DNA from: Branchiostoma floridae
Lineage: Eukaryota > Chordata > Leptocardii > Amphioxiformes > Branchiostomatidae
Length of the DNA: 64,000 nt
Assembly: GCF_000003815.2 (NCBI RefSeq)
Contig: NC_049986.1
Location: 11,196,699 to 11,260,698, forward strand
Reading direction: 5' to 3'
Numbering within the stretch: position 1 is the first letter of the stretch; each line of letters begins with the position of its first letter. The notes under the pieces are model-generated. The model made no database searches. It saw nothing but the letters and a program-made list of their open reading frames with translations, and was not told the origin of the DNA. Position numbers and translations under genes: made by a program. Positions 1,178 through 61,304 of this stretch are shown here, one piece after another.

Positions 1178-3480
1178 CAGTCTTATATGTGGTAACCAAT
1201 ATGTTTGACCTACTGTGTAGTGTATGAACTGTATGAACAAAAAGGTTTATCCTTGTCAAAAGTCAATCTTTTATTAGATAAAAAAAATCATTGATCCTTT
1301 CAACAGTCAATCTTTTATTAGATAAAAAAATCATTAATACGTTGGGAGCAAAACTTTCTATAGAAAGATAAAGAGCTTCCACTAGTCAGTCAGAGACAGG
1401 TCAAAGAATTATGATTTTTTAATGCATTTGTGTAGCATGACAGTTGTTTTACCCATCTTGCCAGCAACAGTACATGACACTTAGTTTTGCTTGCCGATCT
1501 GGTATATGCACATGGACAGGTGCAATTAAAATTTGCATGGGAGTTTAGATTACCATCTATTACCATTGAGACAATAAAAGATATCTTTAGCATCTGAAGC
1601 TCCATTCATATAGGTACATGTAGATATGATTTTGTTCTAGTGGAATTGTTTGATCATCTCACATATAGGCCCACATCCTTAGCTGAATTCTGCACTAAAA
1701 GCATTCAAAATGTGCATGTACATCAATGAAGGGTCTCTTTTTTTCAGTTCCACCTCAGTTGTATAAGGTAGAAACAGATTTTTGTTATGGCAAACTTATT
1801 ACATGTAATAGAACTGTACTCTCTACATCAAGCCATTACCCATTTACCTCCTGGATGTGATAAAACTCAGAACTTCTAGATCACAGGTATGTGTAGTTCA
1901 GTAAGTAGACTTGTCCCATGAATGTTTAGGTAGCTAGTTACATGTACCAAGGAGTTTGTGATATTACAACAATAAGTAGATAGGAAAACGTCTGAAGTGT
2001 CCGCTGTAAGTATTTGCTGTTGATAAAAAGTATTTATTGTTGACGAATGTTAAAGTACTACTGTTGTACATATGGATATATCTCTATATATATTGCTGTG
2101 TTGCAAAGCCACATATTGCTGTGCCAAATGAACATTTGTTGCCAATGTCCTTCCTTTCAAGTTAATGTATGACAGATATCATCATGTAGAAACTGTCACA
2201 ATAGATGTGAGTTAGTAATGTGCTAGTATGCTAAAAAGCTTTTTGTAAACCTATGGTAGCTATCGTTGTTTCATATTAGCCAGATCATTCATAACAGTCT
2301 AGAGTGAAATTCAGAATCTTTGTAGGTGGTTTCAATGATTAAGCATTTATAACTCTGAATTCTTATGTAGGAATGTTAGTGTGTAGCACAGGTTATAGAT
2401 AAATAAATGAAAATAAAGTGAAAAACAAGTAATCAAAGTCATATAGACAGACTTCACCATATTGACAAGTCATCAACAATATTGACAGACTTAAACTGTC
2501 TGAACCAGTTTGTTTGAGTGAGTGTTTCTAACATTTACTGTTGGATATTACTGTCTTGTATGTCATTTTCATCCTGTCACAAGATGTAACAGTGATGCTG
2601 ATTGGACTATTCCCACCTAAATCAAAATGTAATACTAATAGCTATCCTTATTGTTAAATTCCCACCCATACCAAAATGAAACAACCAACCTGATTGAAGG
2701 ATTCCAAATGAAACTCATGCTTTTTAAGTTTTTGAAAGCCCTTGTGTACTCTGTTATAACAATTCTATGAAGTTTGGTTTAAAAAGGTATATATTTATAT
2801 ATTTGGATCCATTTATTTTCTATCATAAGTTTTATTAAAAACTTTAGGCTAATTTTACTCATACTTACTTGTTTATGTTTTCTTAAGAGGCATGTAAGTT
2901 GTACAATTCTATAATACTTTTTAATCATTGTTGGTTTGTATCTGTTCAACATTTGTATATTCATATTCGTTGTTGAATGTGATATATGTTTTTTTCTGCT
3001 TACCTGGCTATTTTCATGTATAATTTGTGTAACTTTCTTATTTCAAGTATGTTTACAGACAGGAATTACACTTCCAATTATATACTTTTAGTTACACATA
3101 GAGTATATTAAATGTGTCTTTATTCTGGCTATTGTAGATATAGCATTGGAGCTGTGTACATTTGTATGACAACAGTTTCAGTATTGTCTTGAAGCTTCAA
3201 TTACATGTATTTACATTGTTGTTGGATATTTTGTTGTACTTTGTTCATTTGTTATAATGCTTAACCAACCAGTCCACTTCTTTACCCTTTTGTACAATCT
3301 CTTTAGCTTGGGCTTTGATATTGTTCATTGAAATAAAACATCGAAATATTGAATAACCAACACTCAGGGATCTTTTAGATTGTAACCATATTAGCAATAT
3401 AGAAAATTAAGATATTCTATCTACTACACAGACTATATAGATGATCTTGGGTAATACATTTGTAGGTTCACACAACAAAT
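1178..3480 (+). other. 3' UTR and AT-rich spacer
   Basis: No coding exon is seen. Candidate poly(A) signals AATAAA lie at 2402-2407, 2412-2417 and 3332-3337 on the + strand, so at least part of this stretch is likely the 3' UTR of the preceding gene. A direct repeat of about 30 bp (GTCAATCTTTTATTAGATAA and following A-run) occurs at about 1261 and 1309, 48 bp apart. Confidence 0.4.
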
Positions 3481-3530
3481 CCTAATGTCTATATTGCCCC
3501 GAGGACGGTAGGAAACGACATGTATTCACA

Positions 3531-3662
3531 TACCCTGGGAGCCAGGCAGGACCGGGTAGCTAGCGAGTTTTGTTCAGGGATCCAAGGCAGTCAGCTAGCC
3601 CGCCGATCTCACATAAGCACTCCGGGGAGTTTAAGCCTGAAGGAGTTATAAAAGAACTCTGC
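3531..3662 (+). repeat. Dispersed repeat, 'ACCCTGGGAGCCAG' family, one arm
   Basis: This begins TACCCTGGGAGCCAG and runs through a conserved block ending in CTCCGGGGAGTTTAAGCCTG. The same block recurs about 300 bp downstream at 3829 with roughly 90% identity by eye. Related ends occur at 30289-30508 and 49113-49267. It is probably a non-autonomous inverted-repeat DNA element represented here by one arm. Confidence 0.6.
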
Positions 3663-3828
3663 TAACGCTTTACACTAATTCCACACACTGCCCCTTTCAC
3701 TTGTGGTACCCACAACCAAAAAGACAGATGGGTCAATTATGTTTATGTCATCTACAGCACTTGTTATCATAATCAATATGCATTAGTCATGCCAAACGGT
3801 GGGGACTTGCCAAGATATCTGTGAATAC

Positions 3829-4017
3829 TACCCTGGGAGCCAGCCGGGATCGGACAGCTAGCGAGTTTTGTTCAGGGATCCAAGGCAGTTAGCCTGCCGA
3901 TCTCACATTAGCGCTCCGGGGAGTTTAAGCCTGAAGAAGTTATTAAAGGGCAGGTGGACTTCATCGGGCTTAAACTCCCCGGGGTGCTAATAGGAGATCG
4001 GTGGGCCTGACTGTCCG
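3829..4017 (+). repeat. Dispersed inverted-repeat element, 'ACCCTGGGAGCCAG' family, second copy
   Basis: This copy starts TACCCTGGGAGCCAGCC and carries an internal palindrome. GCGCTCCGGGGAGTTTAAGCC (about 3910-3931) pairs with GGCTTAAACTCCCCGGGGTGC (about 3967-3988), and the flanks GCCTGCCGATCTC and GAGATCGGTGGGC also pair. The right terminal repeat is not clear, so this end may be truncated. Confidence 0.6.
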
Positions 4018-4820
4018 GACCACCGAATAAACTGTCCTAGGTTTGCTATCAAGTTGATGTCAAACATAGTTTCCCCTTCCAATATGAGATATTGATTTGT
4101 GGGTTGTTTATTTAACATCCTCGACAGAACGTAGAGGCTGATGTTGTAAAATATAGACTTGCATTTAAAGTATTTGTTGAGATAGGGCCCTGTTAATGAC
4201 CTGAAATTCCCATAATGAGAAGCTAATCATGAGAAGCTTGATGATCGCCTTGTCTGACCTGAAACATAATGACTTCAGCAATTATTTACTTGCACGCCAT
4301 TGATAGTAACCTCTGGCAGTTTTGTATTCGGCCTGGTCTCATATATCTTGTTTCAAATAGCACAATGTGGAACATCTGTATGCATAGGCATTCCAATAAT
4401 AAGAGTCACTAAACAAGTCTTTTACATTTTGTCTTATTCGTTTAATACACCAGTACATCCAGAAGGATTTTTTTTTCTCGATAAAACAGCGATTCTGTAA
4501 CGCCCATCTCTGTGCGGGTAAATTATGATGATAGGCAGCACCTGTGCCACGATATTCATTGGGGATGAGGAAGGTGGTTGTAAGAACAAGATAACACACA
4601 TTGTCAAGTAAACAATACATTATTGTTCTTTCGGGGGTATAAATATTTTATTGTTTCACAAAATAGATAACATAGATGAATGTGATGACTTATCAGATAT
4701 GTTAACCAATCCACACACCCTATAATTATATATACAGAATTCTACAGGAAAATTTCATCTAACGTTACATGTACAAGCTAGTAGACAAACAGGCTTTCAC
4801 AAAATAAGATTAAACTTTTG
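4018..4820. other. Spacer without recognised genes
   Basis: AT-rich DNA with short overlapping open frames on both strands (about 4300-4620). None shows splice context or a recognisable motif. I see no gene here. Confidence 0.4.
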
Positions 4821-6518
4821 ATGTGGCAGCCCTTCAGAAAGAGACAATCACAGGGAATGTACACCTGAACACCGCTTTTGGCAAAGTGCTAAGGAAACGT
4901 CTCGTGTATGATCCACTAACCAATTGTTATATTCTTAAGATTGTCTTGAATATCATCATTCTTCATTTTAAATGGTCGTACTTTCGAACTTTAGGCCAAT
5001 TAAGGCTCCAAAATTCTAACCCCTTTGCGAGCCTTCCGCTATTTCCCCATTCTCGAAAAGATCTATATTTTGGCAATTTGGCGGTCGTTTAACAGTTTTC
5101 TGGCCGCGGTCGTGATCGGTACTGCAGATTAGGCTCTGATAGGGTATAACCTCCCAATTTGTAAATCTGTCAAAACGTACAACAGATCAAGCTCAAATTC
5201 AGCAAATGCCTTCCCTAACAGATCACGACACCATCACAAATATTTAGAATTAGATTTCAGACTTTTCAAAAACACCAGTTGACAATTTGTGGATGACTCA
5301 CGCGTAGCCATTTAACAAGGTGCCCGTCCGTCAAAGCGCCCCCTACATTAATGTACAGATTACCTTTTGTGCGTAATGAGTTCATTTAAGATATATATGG
5401 ACATCATCCGCCTTTCCATGACAATTTTGGCATTTCATTCAACTGTTTGTCCGCTTGTATGGGGTGATGGACTGTCAGAGAAGCCCGACCATCACTCAGA
5501 AAACATTACGATTTCACCCCGACATCTGCTCGGAGACCTGATCCGATTTCTCATGAGTCTTACAACTTTGGCCTTTTACTTTACTTTTCATCCTCTTATG
5601 TAACAAACATTTGGAAAACAAGCCGTCATTGATATAACAAAGAGATATACCTGCAAAAGGTATAGATTGGTAGACTGATTTTCTAAAAAAAATACTGTAC
5701 TGTGTGTCCAAGGAGCTCCTTGGTGTGTCTTAGCCTCTTTGCAACAATGCCATTTTTTAGATATCAAATATCAGACTGGCATGGTTTGCTGATGATACTG
5801 TTCTCAAATAAATCATTCATACCAGAAGGAAAGACATCGAACGTCCAACCTACAATTCCAGACTGCTAGGAAATTTCCAAAATGACAGCCAATGTTGAGT
5901 AAAAGGCTAGATTTGTCAGGAGAAAGCGGGTGATGTCTTCCTTTATACTTTATCGAACAAAAACATGATGTGTTTATGAATGTAGGCGGCGCTTCGAAAA
6001 ACGGCCACCATGTAACATGGGCTCCTTGCAAGGCGCATAGAAGTTTATAATTTTTATGTCAACTCGTGTACTTACAATTCTGACATCTCATTCTAGATGT
6101 AAGTGAGGACGTCTTGACCTGTTTGGAAAAGTATTCACGGGCTTTAGCCTAAAGTCGTATATATTTTCGCATTTTTACAAGTTGGAGGTTATACCCTTTG
6201 AGAGCCTAATCTGCAGTACCGCTCCCGNNNNNNNNNNNNNNNNNNNNNNNNNNNNNNNNNNNNNNNNNNNNNNNNNNNNNNNNNNNNNNNNNNNNNNNNN
6301 NNNNNNNNNNNNNNNNNNNNNNNNNNNNNNNNNNNNNNNNNNNNNNNNNNNNNNNNNNNNNNNNNNNNNNNNNNNNNNNNNNNNNNNNNNNNNNNNNNNN
6401 NNNNNNNNNNNNNNNNNNNNNNNNNNNNNNATATGACATGTCTCCTTTACACTGTTGAATAGAAGTGGTCGATTTTGCAAATTCTCTGTGATTGTCTCTT
6501 TCTGAACAATAGCCACAT
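4821..6518. mobile_element. 1.7-kb element with long (about 345 bp) terminal inverted repeats, interrupted by an assembly gap
   Basis: The left end ATGTGGC...TTCAGAAAGAGACAATCACAG (4821-4853) is the reverse complement of the right end (6486-6518). A second paired block, TACTGCAGATTAGGCTCT with GGGTATAACCTCC (about 5118-5155), matches the reverse complement of about 6185-6220. The paired blocks lie at equal distances from the two ends, so the arms are about 340-350 bp each. The gap at 6228-6430 falls inside the right arm. The core (about 5165-6170) has no recognised transposase. A perfect 16-bp palindrome (CCAAGGAGCTCCTTGG) sits at 5708-5723. The architecture suggests a foldback or non-autonomous DNA transposon; the superfamily is unknown. 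Confidence 0.7.
6228..6430. other. Assembly gap (203 N)
   Basis: A run of N inside the right arm of the inverted-repeat element at 4821-6518. Such arms are hard to assemble, which may explain the gap. The true length is unknown. Confidence 0.99.
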
Positions 6519-53577: not shown

Positions 53578-54301
53578 ATGGCGGATGTTATCACTGTTTT
53601 CGGAGCGACAGGTGACCTTTCACATTATTTTCAAACCATACTATGTAATCTTCAAGCTGCCACACATGCATGTACGTGTTCATATTAAATGGTAGCTCTC
53701 TGATCAGAAGCAGTCACGTAGCCTGATTGAATCAAAGCTATTTGTATGGTCTGACAGGGACACAAGGAGGTGGAGTGGCCAATGCTCTTCTAGGGCAACT
53801 AGAGTTCAAGGTCCGTATAGTGACGAGAAGCGCCTCTAGCGACAAGGCTAAGGCATTGCAGGAGAGAGGTGCTGAGGTCGTTGAGGCCACTTTTGACGAT
53901 CCCGGCTCACTGGGGCGGGCAGTGCAGGTAGGGCTGTCTACCTGGCACTGTGAAAGTACTAGCTACGTCGACGCTGGAACTTAACATCGTTCATCGTCAG
54001 CGTTGAAATATATATTCACAAATTAGATTTTGAAGTCGTTTCTTTTCTGGCGATTGAAAGTGTCCTCTGTTTATGATGATACAGTGTTTATTTCTCTCGC
54101 CAGGGCGCCCATGGAACTTTCGTGATGACCACGAATTTATTTGAACTTCCAGACTTCGATTTATTTGAACTTCCAGACTTCGGACAACAAGGGGGCGCTC
54201 TTGGACGCGCTCTCAAACTGCACAGTGCAACATTGAACAGAGTGTCCTCCAAGCAGAGGTTGGGTCGGGGTAGAGTAGTGGCCAGGCCGCGAGATTTCTA
54301 A
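53578..54301 (+). pseudogene. NmrA-like copy D, internally deleted (exon 3 fused to exon 6 remnant)
   Basis: Exon 1 (53578-53611) and exon 2 (53758-53927, 170 bp) are intact with good splice sites. Exon 3 opens at 54104 with GAHGTFVMTT, but a 24-bp unit is then tandemly duplicated (54135-54158, 54159-54182). The sequence next jumps to GGACAACAAGGGGGCGCT, which is the exon 6 segment of copy C (DNKGALL) in a shifted frame. The frame stays open to a TAA at 54299-54301, so a 133-aa product is possible, but exons 4, 5 and most of 6 are gone. The 3' UTR block shared with B and C survives at about 54389-54428. The product would keep the dinucleotide motif and lose the substrate half. Most likely a pseudogene. 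Confidence 0.85.
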
Positions 54302-55461: not shown

Positions 55462-57309
55462 CATCAGGTAACTGACTGGTGCCTACGACAGTTGAATGAT
55501 CTAGTACTACAACAGACTTACGTCGCTGGCCTTGAACACCTTCGGTGCCAGGTGCTTGGAGAGAATGTCTGCAGTCTGCTGGATGGTGATTCTGTCACCG
55601 CTGAAGCCCACAGCCTTGCGGATCCACTGAGCCCTGTTCTTGAAGATCGTCCGAACTGCAGGACCCATGTCTGCTGCACTGACGATGTCCATTGCAGCGC
55701 CCTCCATCGGGACTCCTAGAGAATTACAGTGTGTCAATTGATTGAAGGGGTATGCATGGGGTATGCCTGATAAACGAAATAGCAACTTTGGAGTGACATT
55801 ACGTATTTACTACAACAATGACGGCTACCAATTTTACCAGCCCACCCTTAGCAATACAAAGATATTTATGCTTGACATTTCGCTCATCATCAGACAGTGC
55901 GGTGTAGCAGAAAGTGGTCAAAATCAACCGCTCTGTTGGAAACCCTGTGACAATAAAGATATCAATACAAGTAAGTACCCAATGGCCTCGACCAGACCTT
56001 TGTACGAGGGTATATGATCGTAGAATTTGGCAAAAGGGGAAATAATTGACCAGGAGGGAGTCCGCACCAGGAAGAATACCCTTTCTTTTCGAAGGTCACA
56101 AGCTGCACTCCTCTGAATGGCAAGTTATCTGGCCAATTTATTTTTGCAGCGGCCAATGGAGTCTCGTAGAGACTACTTACCCAAAACGTATGTTCCGTCC
56201 TTCTGTTTTTGTGGCTTTAGAGAAGAGATGTAGTTCTCATAGAAGGAGGAGTATCTGACGAATGTCACTGGCAGTTCTATGGACGTCATGTACTCCTCTA
56301 TCTGCCCCTTGGCGTCGAAGTGAGGACAGGGAAACCCCGCGATCTTCTGAACATTCTCCAGGCCGCTAAACACCACATGGAGAACCCCGGCAGCTTTGGC
56401 GGCGTCCGCTATGGCCTTGCCCTACGTTTGATGTGAAAATGTGGAAATGTAGTTACTCGCGATTCAGCTAGCAAATCAGAGAAAGAAAAACTAGAAACAA
56501 CAGAGGACAATTACGAATAAAATACTGAGGGGCCAGATTTTTGCTGAGCTACTTTTTTTTCAGAAAGGGTAATGTTTGGCTACAGTGTGGTAAATCGTAT
56601 TTTGAGCTACACAGGGAAGAACAGTCGTTAAACATACTTGTTTGATTTCCCTCTCCTGGTCCATATGTTCCCAATAGTTGGTCAACACAAACACTCCGTG
56701 TGCGTCCTGTAGGGGAAACAAACACATGACGTCCATTACAATGGGCCATTTTTGCTGTATTTCACTTTTCACTATCCGACGTTACGACTCACGAGATACA
56801 ACCATTCCCTCGGCTTTGTCTTGATCGTCACTGGAAGCTATACCGGATACAAGAGATTAGGCCAATCACCAAGAAGAGATTATATAATAAGCTGCATGAC
56901 ATAACGAAATCAATTTTTCTAGTACCAAACTGCAGTTTTGAGACGGTTCACCTGCAGGGCAGGTCCCAGCGTGCTTGGATCGTCCAGACTTGCCGTAACC
57001 ACCTCGGCACCTTTCGCTTGCAGTGCCTTAGCTTTGTCGCTAGAGGCGTTTCTCGTTACAGCTCGGACTTTAAAGACTAGGAGAAATAGGATCGATTTTT
57101 TAATTTTTGCAAACTTTTTTAACGATCTAGAGGATCATTTCCTCGCTATTAGATTGAGATATTTTTCATGTGATAATTTGGTCGGAAAGTTATGTTAAAA
57201 CGTCTTTAAAAAGTGCGATTTGGGGCATCCGAGGGCGAATTCAAATGATATGCATGACGTCATTTTAGAGAGTCGCGTTCTTGTAGTAGCTCTACCCCTG
57301 TCCGCTGTA

Positions 57310-57492
57310 ATGGCGTCTTGTACTACCGGTCGTGTTAGTACAAAGTCCAGTGGACGTTATTGTGTCGCAGGAGGCCCACATGGCGTTAGCTGTAAGAATA
57401 GTCAGTCTACCGAGGGGATATCTATGCACAGATTCCCCAAAGTTAAAAATGACAGAACTGCGGCTGACAAATTGAGAGTCTCAGCGAGCTAG
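57310..57492 (+). CDS. THAP-domain fragment of the transposon
   Basis: The frame starting MASCTTGRVS contains RYCVAGGPHGVSCKNS and GISMHRFPKV, matching the N-terminal half of THAP zinc fingers (C-x-n-C and the FP motif). It stops after 60 residues, before the conserved W and the C-x2-H end. It may be a first exon or a decayed fragment. An in-frame upstream extension begins at 57220. It lies antisense to copy E. Confidence 0.6.
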   Translation: MASCTTGRVSTKSSGRYCVAGGPHGVSCKNSQSTEGISMHRFPKVKNDRTAADKLRVSAS

Positions 57493-58066
57493 AAAACAGT
57501 GTACAAAATTATGTATCAAGTTTGTTCAGAGGCATGGTTCCTTCCGCGACATCTACGGCTCCGCACACTTCGAGCTCCGCACACTTCGAGCCCTCGTACT
57601 TCAACATGAACCTTGAGATTATATTGGGGAGAGCTGTGGGAGGACCAGAAGGATTATCGCAGGAAAAGTTCCAACTATTGACACCGCTGGTCTGCCGACT
57701 CCCAGTCACGGAACGCGCGCGGAGAAGGGTGAATTCGCCACTGTTTATCACAGCTGCAGGACGTTTATCTGTCACATACTAGTAGTAATTCACCCTGTAA
57801 ATTTACCTTGTATTTCGCTTGTTCTGGTCATAACTGTGTTGCCATTATTGTGAAGTACTTGTACGCTTTGACTCCGACACAAAACAGCACAAATGATTCT
57901 TGGATTTTACATCTTTGTCGGCGTCCGGATAGATTTCATAACAAAGTGAACCGCTTATACCGAACTCGTAACAACAATGATGCCGACGCTGTCCCAAGAT
58001 TTTCAAGCACGAAAATTTGCTGACCGTATTCAAAATACGTTGGAAAAATAGTCACTAGATTTTGTC

Positions 58067-58710
58067 ATGAGTATTGTAGTTTTTGGTCTCCGTAAAACCA
58101 AGTTACGAGCGAATCTGGGATTTTTCGTCGTCGACAACAACAACTCTAAGAAAAATGGCCCCAAAAAAGATGGCGGCCGTGCGCTAAAAACCTCAGAGAC
58201 TTTTCGAATTTTCTTTCACGGAAACACCAGTCTGTATGTTTTTCCTCGAATCACTAGGAGCTTACGAAATCTGTGTGTTGTTTAGTGTCTTAGCGGTGGA
58301 CATGCTGTTGATAGATGAGTTAAAGTAGTTTGGTTTTGTATAAAAACTTCTAGCGTAACCTGAGCATGTAAACAAAGGAAAATATATCGAGGTTGCGGGA
58401 CCACAAGCATGTACGTACTCGTTACTATGTCATCGATAACTCGTTTTTTTTTGCTCGTGTAGCTACAAACTTGGCACTTTTGTCGCTAGATTTTGCCATG
58501 AATATTGTAGCATTTATATGTAGTACTGATATGGTCTCCGTAAAACCTAGTTACGAGTGAATCTTGGATTTTTCGTCGTCAACAACAAAGAAAAATTCCT
58601 CACAAAAAAATGGCGGTCCCGTGCCATGCGCTATTATTTAACCACACTTTTCGAATTTTCTATCACGGAAACACCAGTCTGTGTGTTTTCCTCGAATCAA
58701 TAGGAGCTTA
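58067..58710. repeat. Internal direct repeat within the transposon
   Basis: About 58050-58285 and 58480-58710 share TAGATTTTG-CATGA-TATTGTAG, GGTCTCCGTAAAACC-AGTTACGAG, GGATTTTTCGTCGTC, TTTTCGAATTTTCT-TCACGG and AGGAGCTTAC-AAATCTGT. Identity is about 85% by eye over roughly 220 bp. Both units contain an AAxATGGCGG word. Confidence 0.75.
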
Positions 58711-59689
58711 CAAAATCTGTCTGTTGTGCAGACAAATATGAGACAGAAAGAACAGTCACTCTCAAAATGTTTCACGGACTCGTCACAATCTGGAGGCGTT
58801 TAGCTAGCTATCGGCCGTGCTCACGACTAGAAATAGTCAGTCTACGACGTAACATCTATCCGATAAAAGCTTACAGGTTTGTAAACAAACACATACTTTG
58901 AGTGGGAATGTATTTTGAATCGCATTTCTTGTGGCAATGAGGTTGCTTCTCATTTTAAATCCTGGCGAACTGTACGTAGTTAGTTGCTCAGCTGTTGTAT
59001 ATTTGTACGCGACCGAAGCTTTAGTCCCGGTTTCGCTAGCAGACACAAGCTGAGACCGCAAAGAGGCACAAATTTCTGCGCTTCCGCTAGAAAACATCTT
59101 CAAATTAATGTACAGCATGGCCTCCTTACTGAGGATAATGTAAGCTAATGCTATCATTTGTGTATAGAAGAAGCGATGACTGTTTGTCCCCGCTTATTCC
59201 ACACGCTACAATAATGAACTTTCTCCCCGCTTGCGTTACGCACGCTTGGTACGTGCATCAACTTCAAGTGCCTCTAAGATATATTTCAGTGGCGTGAATA
59301 CGAACGAAATTCTCTTCAAGTGAAGTGAAGTATGTGTTCTTTAGTCGTGCCGAGTTTCGTCAATGAATTATGTTTCCTTTATAAGATACGGGTCTATCAA
59401 ATGTATATTATTCCCCTAGTCAACCATACCAGCTAGTAGGGACTAACTAAAATGACGTCACGGCATGTTCCTAATTAGTTCCAGCAAAGAGCTCAAAGTA
59501 CACATTTTTATGTCGCTGTTTGAGGGACTTCCGGACGGACAATTGATTTGAAACTTGCATTGACTTTTTCAGAAAAGATCAAATTTTTACATTATTGGTA
59601 GAAAATGCTACAGACGATTTCATTTCAGTTACACTTTAAAATCCTGGTCTTCAAGAAGGGCGTTGGCGACAGCCCCTCCCTGTGTTCCT

Positions 59690-61270: not shown

Positions 61271-61304
61271 CTGTTGCTCCAAAAACAGTGATAAGTTTCG
61301 CCAT

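Follow-up and report, generated by a model that had tools for sequence, protein, structure and literature searches.

Analysis of a 64,000-nucleotide stretch of Branchiostoma floridae DNA (the window) leaves us highly confident that exon 2 of an NmrA-like gene has been split by a young, non-autonomous Kolobok-type element, which would have been inserted in trans at a TTAA within the exon and probably renders the gene a null allele. In the history that we propose, the family to which this element belongs would descend from an element with a THAP transposase, would have lost the catalytic part and the THAP frame while gaining an internal duplication, and would then have spread in two subfamilies, of which B is the older and A the younger. 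Cut-and-paste by a transposase provided in trans would have placed the element at the exon-2 TTAA and duplicated the TTAA; this insertion is young and most likely makes a gene of the NMRAL1/HSCARG type a null allele. The case offers an example of a THAP/Kolobok family that lacks its own transposase, has recently spread and has struck a coding exon, and such insertions would be handy presence/absence variation markers in the very heterozygous amphioxus genome. It leaves the understanding of Kolobok elements unchanged and constitutes a clear, fairly ordinary breakage of a gene by a mobile element. The features are collected in Table 1.

Table 1. Features of the element and of the interrupted NmrA-like gene, in window positions.
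Feature	Position	Strand	Basis
Non-autonomous Kolobok-type element, subfamily A, 2,562 bp, ends AGACTAGG... / ...GTTACACT	57074..59635	+	BLAST-extrapolated ends; tips common to copies elsewhere
TTAA target-site duplication, left copy	57070..57073	.	29/32 copies TTAA/TTAA
TTAA target-site duplication, right copy	59636..59639	.	29/32 copies TTAA/TTAA
Degenerate long inverted repeat, inner part, left arm (TGACGTCATTTTAG...)	57255..57274	+	90% complementary over 20 nt
Degenerate long inverted repeat, inner part, right arm	59441..59460	-	20-nt arm, 90%
THAP-exon remnant over three frames (57310-57477, 57476-57706, 57555-57737), including VPTIDTAGLPTPS and TERARRRV	57310..57737	+	tblastn, L043 THAP exon
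16-bp tandem duplication GCTCCGCACACTTCGA within the THAP remnant	57558..57589	+	Repeat search
Two diverged ~0.45 kb units, internal tandem duplication	58040..58727	+	Repeat families D1, D2, D4, D5, D6; self-hit 76%
NmrA-like gene exon 1 (MAKLITVFGATG)	61271..61304	-	Gene model
NmrA-like gene exon 2, 5' part, 48 bp	59640..59687	-	Direct-repeat position and gene model
NmrA-like gene exon 2, 3' part, 122 bp including one TTAA	56952..57073	-	Direct-repeat position and gene model
NmrA-like gene exon 3	56638..56706	-	Gene model
NmrA-like gene exon 4	56181..56421	-	Exon similarity and gene model
NmrA-like gene exon 5	55522..55715	-	Exon similarity and gene model
NmrA-like gene exon 6 with stop codon	54993..55181	-	Gene model

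The interrupted NmrA-like gene

NmrA-like genes form a tandem array in the window. The interrupted copy, which NmrA-like paralogues adjoin, is a six-exon gene running on the minus strand from 61304 to 54993. The initial annotation had proposed that a transposon splits its exon 2, and this holds: removal of the element together with one copy of the target repeat restores an exon of 170 bp, the length also found in four siblings within the window (39k, 47k, 50k and 53k). Exon 2 of two paralogues just right of the window (locus L048) likewise fits 170 bp, with 160/170 and 155/170 identical positions, when the pattern CAG + 170 bp + GTAAGG is required; a freer boundary finder missed one of the two and gave the other 162 bp from an inner CAG-G start. 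The 53k sibling (53753-53930) is apparently a lone exon 2, with no matches to other exons nearby among the matches listed.

Joined without the insert, the gene has an open frame of 298 codons with zero stops or shifts, and the 298-residue protein matches NMRAL1/HSCARG structures with an E-value of 1e-76; the insertion is the sole lesion seen in the coding sequence. One of the right-hand paralogues (L048b) carries the target letters TTTTAAAGTCC unoccupied and aligns with the joined flanks in a single alignment (600/602 bp, 82%, 57 gap positions), as against two alignments, one on each side of the insert, for the unjoined sequence. No second allele was seen in the assembly with the right flank as query, its 601 bp being found once at 100%.

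If the insert is kept in, only 30 residues are translated before a stop a few bases inside the element. The gene is lengthened by 2,566 bp, a length not divisible by three, and the THAP remnant of the insert lies antisense to the NmrA-like gene. It is improbable that the gene still works with the insert spliced out as a tolerated intron: under a crude home-made matrix, applied to donors within the first 400 bp from one end of the element and acceptors within 400 bp from the other, a pyrimidine-rich acceptor (CTATTTCTCCTAG) at the far end of the element in gene orientation scores 7.0, in the range of the native acceptors (5.0-7.5), but the best stop-free in-frame donor/acceptor pair reaches 3.1, against 9.5 for the top-scoring pair without that restriction, and the donor of that in-frame pair scores -0.89 compared with 2.4-8.4 for native donors. 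Loss of this paralogue is likely, and the insertion most likely turns this gene copy into a null allele.

Termini, target site and classification

A genome search gave at least 46 matching rows (40 of 55 candidates scored); of these, 29 start at query base 1 or 45, end at 2565/2566 and match at 94-100%. The 33 copies examined, namely the window copy and 32 fetched with their flanks, cover 37 of the at least 46 rows; 32 of the 33 carry both tips, and the remaining copy (L037), which is without the left end, was left out. Alignment of copies across the genome, envisaged in the initial annotation as the way to fix the termini and the duplication length, gave a clear result, with tips that agree in the 32 copies and TTAA on both flanks in 29 of them. 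Of the other three, one borders on Ns at one side, and two carry a changed sequence at one flank (TCAA and ACAA). The flanking four bases played no part in choosing the copies. The neighbouring 10-bp flanks differ among all copies (one flank consisting of Ns), and the copies thus represent separate insertions. The ends read AG...CT in 32/32 copies, partly by construction because copies were chosen by their tips (32/33 passing); the BLAST-extrapolated ends, which are independent of that choice, place the left end of A and the right end identically. The tip sequences are common to the 15 copies of subfamily A, and the right tip also to the 17 copies of subfamily B, at different sites.

These many copies settle whether the target duplication is of 4 or 8 bp. 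The insert claimed at 57071..59636 is real, but the element proper spans 57074-59635, and the 8-bp repeat ACTTTAAA is present at 57067-57074 and 59633-59640 but is not the target duplication. Among the 29 copies flanked by TTAA on both sides the direct repeat is 4 bp long in 14, 5 bp in 13, 6 bp in one and 8 bp in one, the last being the window copy; since a repeat of 8 bp occurs in that copy only, it is the TTAA duplication plus four chance matches.

The P superfamily makes 8-bp target duplications, and a P-like element that duplicated ACTTTAAA had been offered as an alternative. The direct repeat at the window site and the THAP-type domain both speak for such an element, the THAP domain being likened to the DNA-binding domain of the P-element transposase in the title of a reference in PMC6004289. 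The likeness to P elements is confined, as to the apparent 8-bp repeat, to the window site, 1/29 of the TTAA-flanked copies; the true duplication is of 4 bp, TTAA, and across copies this refutes the P-like reading, to which we give practically no credence.

The Kolobok affinity suggested in the initial annotation is borne out by the agreement of the TTAA duplication, the AG...CT ends and the THAP remnant, which matches the intact THAP exons of locus L043. PiggyBac-type elements likewise duplicate TTAA, as seen here in 29/32 copies, and their termini are of the CCY type. That the window element is one of them is very improbable, and we reject this reading: it has AG...CT ends and a THAP remnant, no piggyBac domain was found in the insert frames scanned, and its termini are of the RR...YY kind that, in passages of PMC9587614, distinguishes Kolobok from piggyBac. 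The same passages define Kolobok, as distinct from piggyBac, by TTAA duplications and 5'-RR...YY-3' ends, both of which the window family shows. Parts of PMC6004289 describe Kolobok transposases as usually carrying a THAP domain and a C-terminal AVPTIF box, and Table 5 there gives AG ends for ten Xenopus XKol copies with both ends.

The window element is a non-autonomous member of this known superfamily, and any link to a Kolobok transposase would rest on its ends, its target and its THAP remnant. Compared with the Xenopus elements (XKol, T2-MITE) as portrayed in those parts of the literature, it shares the TTAA duplication, the AG terminal dinucleotide, a THAP domain with a VPTI box and the existence of non-autonomous relatives. 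Unlike the superfamily at large, the window family has no detectable catalytic domain, its THAP frame is broken, and it carries degenerate inverted repeats of ~190 bp as well as a duplication of 0.45 kb in its interior. KolobokP, reported from three Branchiostoma species in passages of PMC9587614, belongs to the Kolobok lineage too, but its long direct repeats (~450 or 660 bp in the account given there) are terminal, whereas those of the window element are internal and long terminal direct repeats were not found in it. The family may already be in Repbase, as Kolobok families from the genus Branchiostoma are named in the literature, among them Kolobok-2_BF of B. floridae in a portion of PMC6004289.

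Inverted similarity of the two ends, reaching well inward, had also been claimed and was recovered. Ungapped, the tips match at 13/21 positions when both start just inside the TTAA, compared with 3-10 after shifts of 1 to 8 bases, and the inner TGACGTCATTTTAG arms are 90% complementary over 20 nt. The two ends aligned over 230 bp give z = 4.3 against dinucleotide shuffles, though the best of 1000 shuffles reached 84.2, above the 82.9 of the real pair.

The THAP remnant and coding capacity

A THAP-like start had been noted on the plus strand of the insert, and it is borne out by a tblastn search with one of the intact THAP exons that the genome holds elsewhere. Two such exons lie ~0.66 kb apart on contig C207 (L043:2954-4109), near the contig end; they match Pfam THAP with E-values of 1.6e-14 and 2.3e-13, both contain the box AVPTIDTAG, and the first matches the solved THAP2 domain (E 3.8e-5). 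This first exon matches the remnant at 77% over 56 residues in two frames, including VPTIDTAGLPTPS, with an E-value of 2e-33, and a third frame of the remnant matches with E = 1e-6. Pfam THAP scored against the remnant pieces joined by X gives E = 0.0058 (17.8 bits, below the curated cut-off of 23.9), a trimmed piece gives E 0.095, also under the curated cut-off, and the 97-residue THAP frame of the element has no Pfam match. Because the intact L043 exon matches the remnant, the THAP assignment is sound. The L043 pair may be a duplication of the first exon of a fuller Kolobok-like element that is truncated where the contig ends. Within the remnant, the 16-bp unit GCTCCGCACACTTCGA occurs as an exact string in two copies in 20/32 elements, in one copy in 10 and in none in 2.

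No stop-to-stop frame of the insert exceeds 118 residues, and no transposase was found among the 15 insert frames scanned for domains, which yielded, besides the weak THAP match, sub-threshold matches to ESF1, zinc finger and cyclin-T2 domains (E 0.028 to 0.15). By these frames the element is not an autonomous Kolobok, which would encode a DDE catalytic domain and an H2CH finger. In 15/15 copies of subfamily A a single shared codon terminates the THAP frame; the frame read-out placed only 3/17 B copies, and the letters around the stop are identical in 29/32 copies. One B copy (L036) reads these letters in another frame and has an unbroken frame of 228 residues, for which Pfam gave no match. 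The shared stop argues that at least subfamily A spread after loss of the frame and would have been moved in trans.

Age of the copies and the search for a partner

The insertion had been called fresh, in agreement with the divergence of the 15 A copies, whose pairwise differences average 0.59% (range 0 to 1.02%) and whose distances from the A majority sequence are 0.12-0.55% (0.31% for the window copy); the closest copy to the window element shows 7 differences in 2,561 compared bases. The 17 B copies differ by 1.86%, and A differs from B by 2.68%. Judged by these divergences, subfamily A is a recent spread. Heterozygosity of 3.2-4.2% is given for sequenced amphioxus in a section of PMC12500494. 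At that level two alleles would be much more divergent than two A copies are, and we would expect the insertion to postdate the common ancestor of most alleles and still to segregate in the population. A fuller proposal, toward which we are tentative and somewhat doubtful, is that subfamily A is still moving and younger than the usual allele split, that the window insertion is a segregating null allele, and that the driver is a genomic Kolobok transposase sharing little with the family beyond the outer tips.

The B copies (L022-L033, L035, L036, L038-L040) have a left tip, AGACTTGCAGAAATA, unlike that of A and a right tip as in A; this change at one end may mark how the family restarted its spread. 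L034 and L040 are ~0.15-0.25 kb longer than the others (2,818 and 2,701 bp) and seemingly carry further insertions.

Searches of the genome with the left end, the right tip and the THAP sequence did not find an autonomous partner. The left-end search (40 of 43 candidates scored) recovered at least the 15 copies of A and the 17 of B, together with a fragment at 100% that lies next to Ns, another at 93%, and six further pieces ranging from 75 to 83%. The right tip occurs exactly at 30 sites, made up of 29 examined copies and L042, and with one to three mismatches at 22 sites (three of them examined copies), compared with 12 for a reversed control pattern. Several candidates for the partner were rejected: L049 (C16) is limited to the rightmost 210 bp, L050 (C14), which adjoins Ns, to the leftmost 325 bp, and L052 has no more than 53 bp of the right end in common with the element; L053 shows a tip of the right type and a weakly THAP-like stretch (E 0.18), but its three frames are full of stops; and L044 (C16) is a distant relative of ~2.1 kb at 65%, with one stop in the THAP frame.

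L044 (about 3219-5300) and L045 (about 4136-4506) are more distant relatives, at 65-74%. Their tips beside TTAA are AGAACTGGTGAAATG or nearly so, and they have the layout of AG, 7 bases and GAAAT in common with the window element. A stretch of 326 bp between two TTAA sites on C17 (L054:180-505), with the tips AGTGCCGCTGAAAT and AGTGTCACTGAAAT in inverted order, is 76% similar to the right end of the element over 50 bp and looks like a miniature relative.
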